NCBI RefSeq assembly: GCF_000293865.2
Contig: NZ_ALKN02000009.1
Coordinates: forward strand, 62,001 to 126,000
Source: Limnohabitans sp. Rim28
GTDB taxonomy: Bacteria; Pseudomonadota; Gammaproteobacteria; Burkholderiales; Burkholderiaceae_C
Direction: 5' to 3'
DNA: 64,000 nt
A program made the position numbers and the translations under genes. Position 1 is the stretch's first letter. Each line of letters opens with the position of its first letter. Below the pieces are notes generated by a model, which ran no database searches, was not told where the DNA came from, and saw nothing but the letters and a program-made list of their open reading frames with translations. This document shows, in pieces, positions 15,706-16,511 of the stretch.

Positions 15706-16422
15706 TTATTTCTTTTGAACGGGGTTGGCCAACAGCAAGTGGGCTGGGTAGGCCCGCATGAACTCGCGGGCCTTATCGAGTGGCGCGCTCAACCAGGCAC
15801 CGTAGGCGCCCTCGTTCAAAATGGCAGGCATGCGTTTTTCATTGCCGTTTTGGCCATAACGGTTCATCAAGGCGTGGCTGTTGGCGTTCACCGTGAGCAG
15901 TGTGAAGCTGATGATGTCCTCATCGCCCTGTGACCAGCGCTCCCACAAGCCTGCCACCCCCATGGGTTTGCCGTCCACCCTTGCAATGCGAGTGGGCACG
16001 GCTTTGCGGCTGCGCCAATCGTCTTCCAAAAAAGCTTGCATCGGGATGATGCAGCGCTGGCCTTTCAGCCAGGTCTCGCGCGTGGCCGTGGCGGTGCTCA
16101 TGGTCTCATAACGGGTCACGGCCAACTTGGTGGACCGCAGCTTGGCGTCAGACGCCGACTTGACCCAAGTGGGCACCAAACCGAATTGGCCTTGGGCCAG
16201 CGCCATCACCAGCGCTGGTGTGGGGGCTGCGTCAGCTGCATGCTCAACATCGGGTTCAGGTGCGGACAGCTGGGCTTGTTCAGCTTCCAACATCGCCTTG
16301 CGGATGAAAAAACCCGGCTGGCGCGGCCAGACTTCTTTGCCCAGCAAGGCGGCGGGCGGGGCGATGCCAAAGGCCTCGGCGTACAGGTCGGAGCTTTTCA
16401 GGCATTCGTATTGGGTGCTCAT
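15706..16422 (-). CDS. SRAP/YedK-family protein lacking the catalytic cysteine
   Basis: This 238-residue protein belongs to the SOS-response-associated peptidase (HMCES/YedK) family, which in active members crosslinks abasic sites in single-stranded DNA through Cys2. Recognisable parts are FGLVPTWVKS, RCIIPMQAFLEDDW, GVAGLWERW, SFTLLTVNAN and KRMPAIL. It begins Met-Ser-Thr-Gln-Tyr, so the position of Cys2 is Ser. The segment AVTRYET replaces the usual N-A-R-A-E-T, and EKRMP replaces H-x-RMP. The conserved Arg and Glu remain. It is either a divergent subfamily with another chemistry or an inactive relative. No LexA box was recognised nearby. Confidence 0.82.
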   Translation of the reverse strand: MSTQYECLKSSDLYAEAFGIAPPAALLGKEVWPRQPGFFIRKAMLEAEQAQLSAPEPDVEHAADAAPTPALVMALAQGQFGLVPTWVKSASDAKLRSTKLAVTRYETMSTATATRETWLKGQRCIIPMQAFLEDDWRSRKAVPTRIARVDGKPMGVAGLWERWSQGDEDIISFTLLTVNANSHALMNRYGQNGNEKRMPAILNEGAYGAWLSAPLDKAREFMRAYPAHLLLANPVQKK

Positions 16423-16511
16423 GCGGTCGATGCTAACCCACGGGCGGTGCGGCTCGGACGTGCCCCTGCGACCTGATACGCTCAGCGCTCGATGACAAGA
16501 CCTGCTTTGAC

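Follow-up and report, generated by a model that had tools for sequence, protein, structure and literature searches.

The SRAP proteins, present in organisms as different as E. coli and humans, have a cysteine at position 2 (Cys2) as their defining feature. We found that a SRAP gene of Limnohabitans sp. Rim28 belongs to a single clade, mainly from Burkholderiaceae, whose members lack both this cysteine and, with one exception, the catalytic histidine, and which is nevertheless under purifying selection. The gene (P0001) occupies positions 15706 to 16422 on the minus strand of the window, that is, the whole 64,000-nucleotide stretch analyzed here (contig NZ_ALKN02000009.1, positions 62,001 to 126,000). 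It starts with ATG and encodes 238 residues; codon 2 (16417 to 16419, minus strand) is AGC, giving Ser2 where the other SRAPs read have Cys. Stable crosslinking to DNA has very probably been lost in this clade. On balance we favor the view that it is a single-origin SRAP subfamily whose members would bind single-stranded or abasic DNA non-covalently, or through a transient imine. Throughout, Burkholderiaceae is taken in the GTDB sense, with the former Comamonadaceae included.

The open reading frame (ORF) matched the Pfam profile PF02586 (SRAP) at 92.2 bits against a cut-off of 27.1, and phmmer alignments, the predicted structure and matches in the PDB agree with this assignment. An NCBIfam scan of the protein gave nothing near cut-off, and a PHROGs scan gave one family, with its function listed as unknown. 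An AlphaFold2 model from a 91-row alignment reached a mean predicted local distance difference test score (pLDDT) of 91.3 and a predicted template modeling score (pTM) of 0.88. Cys2-type relatives supplied 59 of the 91 rows, and the 32 clade rows alone gave a model with a pLDDT of only 41.3; our statements about residues rest on alignment and not on the model. Searched with Foldseek, the model returned 21 matches at E <= 0.001, every one a SRAP structure at E <= 1e-7, with 1zn6 first. Over the 15 entries listed, Z against the model ranged from 18.9 to 29.8 (29.8 for 1zn6, 25.9 for 2f20, 23.3 for the SRAP domain of human HMCES in 6oov, and 20.3 for the Schiff base of YedK C2A in 8d2m). The SRAP fold is predicted to be kept. 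By profile and predicted fold, then, the window protein is a SRAP, but one without the Cys2 and His of the crosslinking type. The preliminary description of this locus had assigned it to the SRAP family and read Ser from AGC at position 2, and both stand, as do its coordinates; it gave no strand, which is minus. We also considered a missed upstream start that would place Cys at position 2, and rejected it because no in-frame ATG, GTG or TTG lies between the preceding stop and the ATG.

For comparison we collected 180 proteins including YedK, 148 of them distinct. Removal of two short rows, L026 (in-frame stop) and L098 (contig end), left 146: 101 without Cys2, 44 with Cys2, and YedK. Genes with an N-terminus that was absent or not located (L089, L094, L117, L155, L170, L181 and L185) were left out of the alignment; the printed frames of L170, L181 and L185 show Met-Cys. 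The 101 distinct Cys2-less relatives come from Limnohabitans, Hydrogenophaga, Acidovorax and other Burkholderiaceae. They were grouped by the absence of Cys2, and their monophyly was tested separately. In a 68-row maximum-likelihood tree, one branch divided the 36 Cys2-less rows from the 32 Cys2 rows with support of 100/100, and it was present in 100% of 200 bootstrap trees; this tree included the trait columns, and YedK, some of the clade and 12 Cys2 rows on long branches were not in it. A quick tree of 112 rows, in which the long branches and YedK were present, again required one change, with support 76. The preliminary description had proposed asking whether Ser2 is conserved in a clade, and the clade exists: Cys2-less, mostly Ser2, in Burkholderiaceae. 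A sequencing error at codon 2, which it had named as a possible refutation, is ruled out, since the Cys2-less sequences number 101, all distinct, and were drawn from many assemblies.

Identity separates the two groups less cleanly. Among the kept rows, the best tblastn segment identity to the window protein was at least 47.8% without Cys2 and at most 44.7% with Cys2, a narrow gap, as the left-out L155 is 49.0% identical along a part of it, and for two other Cys2-group genes the figure rises to 50% along a portion of the sequence. The gap in bit scores (236 versus 172) and the tree are firmer grounds for the separation.

The founding survey of the family describes Cys2 as absolutely conserved, and for 1zn6, a BB1717-like protein of Bordetella bronchiseptica (Q7WLM8), it gives Cys2, Glu115 and His173 as the predicted triad and R86 and R180 as possible DNA contacts (PMC3765255). 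This structure superimposes on our model with a root-mean-square deviation of 2.0 over 208 aligned residues at 41% identity. In the phmmer alignment, Cys2, Asn84, Arg86, Glu115, His173 and Arg180 of 1zn6 correspond to Ser2, Val102, Arg104, Glu133, Gly190 and Arg197 of the window protein. In other words, the Glu and the two Arg are shared, whereas the Cys, Asn and His of 1zn6 are replaced.

The same pattern, with variations, runs through the clade. Position 2 is Ser in 85 of the 101 members, Thr in 12, Ile in 3 and Pro in 1, against Cys in all 44 relatives. Val102 (16117 to 16119, minus strand) stands in place of the conserved Asn (YedK Asn75); the clade has N49, V44, H5, A2 and T1 here, and the relatives N44. 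Arg104 (16111 to 16113, minus strand; YedK Arg77) is kept, with R87, K11, Y2 and A1 in the clade and R44 in the relatives. The catalytic Glu is also kept, as Glu133 (16024 to 16026, minus strand; YedK Glu105), with E86, V9, A2, T2, Q1 and I1 against E44. Gly190 (15853 to 15855, minus strand) takes the place of the catalytic His (YedK His160): the clade has G56, Q40, D2, A1, H1 and one gap, the relatives H43 and F1, and L145 is the sole clade member with His. The commonest combination is Cys2 absent, His absent and Glu kept. The preliminary description had noted the replacement of Cys2 and Asn and the retention of Arg and Glu, all of which the alignment bears out. It was also right that the His is replaced, but it looked for it in an HxRMP motif. 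In this branch of SRAPs the catalytic His sits in FHKPx(D/E)EKR, and the decisive position is 190; HxRMP would begin at the E of EKRMP, a position that is Glu or Asp in 44 of the 44 Cys2 relatives as well.

We measured the distribution of the clade in samples of increasing breadth. Of the 60 genomes in the genus sample, 50 contain a match to the window protein, and 42 have the close type (best identity at least 59%; next group at most 44%). A clade-type match is present in 33 of the 250 genomes of the family sample, which represent 18 of its 141 genera (at least 236 bits; next 172), and in 7 of 300 genomes of the order sample (at least 314 bits; next 214), six of them in the same family. The seventh, G540, is from another family (f10). 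Its clade member, L384 (G540:C71:89946-90653), begins MSSQYQ and contains the clade motif described below, and its presence outside the family may reflect transfer, possibly horizontal. A second SRAP match lies some 13 kb from it on that contig. Of the 369 genomes in the class sample, 3 have a match that passes E 1e-50, and each of them belongs to the family of the window genome. One clade-type gene, L053 (CALQKH020000002.1), comes from a record titled Akkermansia muciniphila; it is 82-84% identical to the window's gene, and the record is probably a mislabeled metagenome-assembled genome.

As a control, we read 16 further SRAP genes of the family, and 16 of 16 begin Met-Cys; 13 of these are from a low-scoring group starting MCYSA or MCFSA. 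That group (L410-L422), the second divergent one among the family's SRAPs, carries a long charged insertion within its first half and, by eye, keeps Cys2 in 13 of 13. Of 80 loci on viral contigs in each of two sets, 33 were read in one and 77 in the other, and all begin Met-Cys. Across the genomes and contigs sampled, which set the scope of our search for other natural Cys2-less SRAPs, loss of Cys2 is confined to the single clade among genes whose N-termini were read.

The clade is under purifying selection, and because of this we consider that its members have probably kept a function. The ratio of nonsynonymous to synonymous substitution rates (dN/dS) averaged 0.157 over 45 pairs of ten same-genus sequences (Nei-Gojobori), and 0.083 without the linker at residues 43-73 (16204 to 16296, minus strand), which is variable in the alignments and low in confidence in blocks of the model. 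The number of columns at least 97% conserved is 62 in the clade, several of them clade-specific, versus 21 in the Cys2 group, although sequences within the clade also differ less from one another (mean pairwise identity 0.66 versus 0.49). A decaying paralogue or a sequencing artefact might be suspected from the three classic active-site residues that differ, and from a SRAP fragment with an in-frame stop in the same genome. This is most improbable in view of the 101 distinct sequences, an invariant new motif, a conserved -10 box, and the 17 of 60 genus genomes in which the clade type is the only SRAP found; we hold it refuted by the low dN/dS together with the spread of clade-type matches over genera of the family sample.

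On a quick tree built without the columns of the chemistry-bearing residues, the presence of Glu133 requires 8 changes, that of Asn102 requires 6 and that of Arg104 requires 6. The median core column changes 6 times, and 43 of the 206 stay unchanged in the clade. Ranked by number of changes, the Asn, Arg and position 2 columns stand above 50% of the core columns, the Glu column above 70% and the His column above 77%. The residues of the old chemistry are now ordinary positions inside the clade.

The expected consequence can be judged from YedK mutants, as described in one study (PMC9436759). The N-terminal amine of Cys2 attacks the aldehyde of the abasic (AP) site, Glu105 drives Schiff-base formation, His160 assists ring opening, and the thiol closes the thiazolidine. 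Without the Cys2 thiol, YedK forms no DNA-protein crosslink (DPC), but the Schiff base is still made and the AP-site strand is cleaved in a Glu105-dependent way; earlier work cited there trapped the C2A and C2S Schiff bases with borohydride. Lyase rate constants are 0.05 for C2A, 0.02 for C2A H160Q and 0.002 for C2A E105Q (the legend gives no unit), so that cleavage is 2.5-fold slower than C2A in C2A H160Q and 25-fold slower in C2A E105Q. For C2A H160Q, Schiff-base rate constants are given as 1.8 against 1.7.

The window protein resembles YedK (6nua, crosslink; 8d2m) in fold, with Z about 20, and in keeping the equivalents of Glu105 and Arg77. Since the equivalents of Cys2, His160 and Asn75 are replaced, YedK-type Cys2-thiazolidine chemistry is not to be expected of it, and because the mutants behave as they do in PMC9436759, neither is a thiazolidine crosslink. 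The preliminary description held that the protein should be inactive or act differently. The mutants argue for the loss of the crosslink, but "inactive" goes too far: YedK without the thiol still forms the Schiff base and cleaves AP sites, and the clade is under purifying selection. It is also conceivable that crosslinking persists in part, with Ser2 forming an imine or oxazolidine at the AP site and shielding it reversibly. We regard this as improbable, as SRAP without the Cys2 thiolate forms no DPCs according to the same study, members with Ile2 and Pro2 exist, and the His is gone.

The main rival to simple binding is that these proteins are natural AP lyases. The initiator Met is normally removed before Ser, Thr or Pro and should stay before Ile. 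After its removal, the amine of Ser or Thr would attack the AP aldehyde and Glu133 would drive the Schiff base; with no thiol to close the ring, the adduct would beta-eliminate and the strand would be nicked. The clade would then cut the lesion that its Cys2 relatives shield. YedK itself gains lyase activity, with a borohydride-trappable Schiff base, on loss of the Cys2 thiol, and the commonest clade state resembles YedK C2A H160Q, which keeps Schiff-base formation (PMC9436759). Because of that resemblance, a weak lyase is chemically plausible for a Ser2, His-less, Glu-keeping protein. Retention of Glu in most members fits, and so does the only Ile2 lineage (L147-L149), where Met would be expected to stay and Glu is absent in 3 of 3. 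Yet Glu is invariant in the 44 Cys2 relatives and absent in 15 of the 101 clade members, 12 of which are still Ser2 or Thr2, and the repeated changes at this site on the tree speak against a lyase, as does the small rate constant of the C2A mutant in that study. We consider a natural lyase possible, though clearly less probable than a binder; the two overlap, as the binder may form a transient imine.

The changes in the clade go beyond Ser2, which the preliminary description had seen, and include a new invariant motif, which it had not. The segment W86-L100, WVKSASDAKLRSTKL, at 16123 to 16167 on the minus strand, contains the motif WxKSxSDxxLRxxK, in which W86, K88, S89, S91, D92, L95, R96 and K99 are each present in 101 of 101 members. 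At the same places the 44 Cys2 relatives have Ser89, Asp92, Leu95 and Arg96 in 0 of 44, Ser91 in 3, Lys99 in 4 and Lys88 in 32. The segment is four residues longer than in these relatives, all from Burkholderiaceae, and columns 95-96 are absent in 44 of 44. An insertion of four residues unique to the clade was considered and dropped, as the segment of 1zn6 is equally long. Because 1zn6 aligns ungapped and HMCES is one residue shorter (phmmer alignments), it is the motif and not the length that is special; both 1zn6 and HMCES lack the motif. It lies between Trp86 (YedK Trp67) and position 102 (YedK Asn75), with residues 90-97 forming a helix in the AlphaFold2 model, and the segment would border the DNA cleft.

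Such a motif could serve something other than DNA. The old pocket or the new motif might bind RNA, a nucleotide or a protein, with Ser89, Ser91, Asp92 and Lys99 forming a new site. The invariance of these residues, and of Leu95 and Arg96, together with their rarity or absence in the relatives, speaks for the idea. The flanking genes point the same way weakly: among 20 flanking ORFs of 8 outside-genus loci, the part of the flanking ORFs scanned, 14 have a Pfam match and none matches a DNA-repair family, and many SRAP genes may stand alone. Set against this, the length of the segment is not new, and we think a non-DNA role unlikely.

The reading we prefer, a non-covalent or transiently imine-forming DNA binder, would run as follows. 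Cys2 and the catalytic His would have been lost in or near the ancestor of the subfamily, which would make a thiazolidine DPC impossible. The SRAP fold is predicted to be retained, the conserved Arg residues are kept in most members, and KSxSDxxLRxxK has become fixed between Trp86 and position 102. DNA would be bound non-covalently or via a transient imine only, nucleic-acid binding being probably kept, and the surface of the new motif could recruit a partner. This reading has a precedent, because HMCES is reported to act in alternative end joining in a way that involves DNA binding but no crosslinking (PMC10250235).

Several points weigh against it. A protein with a purely structural role would not need to keep Glu133 and Arg104 as often as the clade does (86 and 87 of 101 members). 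In 98 of 101, position 2 is Ser, Thr or Pro, which may mean that a free N-terminal amine for Schiff-base chemistry is selected. Finally, we found no conserved partner gene among mechanically called ORFs, from which small or overlapping genes could escape.

HMCES crosslinks through Cys2, and a sizeable clade without Cys2 and His under strong selection suggests that the fold is useful without its chemistry. The clade offers a natural test of the crosslinking-independent functions of HMCES and YedK and a natural counterpart of the C2A and C2S mutants. Less probably, it has reversed SRAP function into a natural AP lyase using the Ser/Thr amine and Glu, or has turned the fold to a new substrate through KSxSDxxLRxxK; if true, either would be a natural Cys2-free SRAP activity for which the literature searched contained no report. 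The literature matches listed, in a search that covered few subscription papers, contain no description of a natural Cys2-less SRAP, which does not establish absence from print. In the meantime, the usual activity should not be assumed from the name "SOS response-associated peptidase".

The clade is also distinguished by its upstream sequence. At -13 to -8 relative to its ATG, the window gene has a -10-like box, TAGCAT (16430 to 16435, minus strand), and no Shine-Dalgarno sequence was seen. The pattern TANNAT, starting at -16 to -10, is present in 94 of 101 clade members (93 at -13 or -12) versus 9 of 44 relatives, whereas the -100 to -30 stretch predicts 0.1 and 0.4 such cases, respectively; the sequences counted are related and not independent. 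Shine-Dalgarno-like 4-mers are found in 2 of 101 clade members and 8 of 44 relatives. The box ends about 7 bases before the ATG and is preserved where the remaining upstream DNA differs between genera. With the usual -10 spacing, the transcript would start at the ATG or about 1 base before it. We predict from this pattern that the mRNA of these genes is leaderless throughout the clade.

The genome of Limnohabitans sp. Rim28 also carries a Cys2 SRAP, L001 (G000:C9:151604-152113), with 38% identity to the window protein over residues 74-223. Unlike the window protein, it starts Met-Cys (with a GTG start) and keeps Asn, Glu and His; by eye, it has no TANNAT at the clade's position. A further SRAP fragment with an in-frame TGA, L003 (G000:C2:50198-50344), falls below the family cut-off and may be the relic of a third SRAP gene. 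Among the 60 genus genomes, the two types occur together in 25; a further 17 have the Cys2-less type alone, 8 have Cys2 types alone and 10 have neither, with types assigned by identity, only some N-termini read and some genomes incomplete. An obligate helper of a Cys2 SRAP was rejected, as 17 of the 42 clade-type genomes, six of them at least 99% complete, show no other SRAP.

A phage or plasmid origin was likewise rejected, on weak grounds given the limited patterns and collections. Matches were obtained to 37 phage and 535 plasmid records, none of which reaches 60% identity, with the best listed at 43.3% and 43.8%, and peptide patterns found no clade members among the viral contigs. SRAP genes of SOS operons adjoin umuDC, imuAB-dnaE2, dinB or lexA (PMC3765255). 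The neighbors in the window are hemC-, argH-, pseudouridine-synthase- and nitroreductase-like. Among the 64 loci compared, relatives of these neighbors occur at 15 to 28; among the 20 of them that lie outside the genus, the number falls to between 0 and 2, and one of these groups consists of doubtful antisense frames. In genome G035, two SRAP matches, L103 (G035:C1:847280-847903) and L117 (G035:C1:849853-850140), lie on one contig with about 2 kb between them, and the second seems to be truncated.
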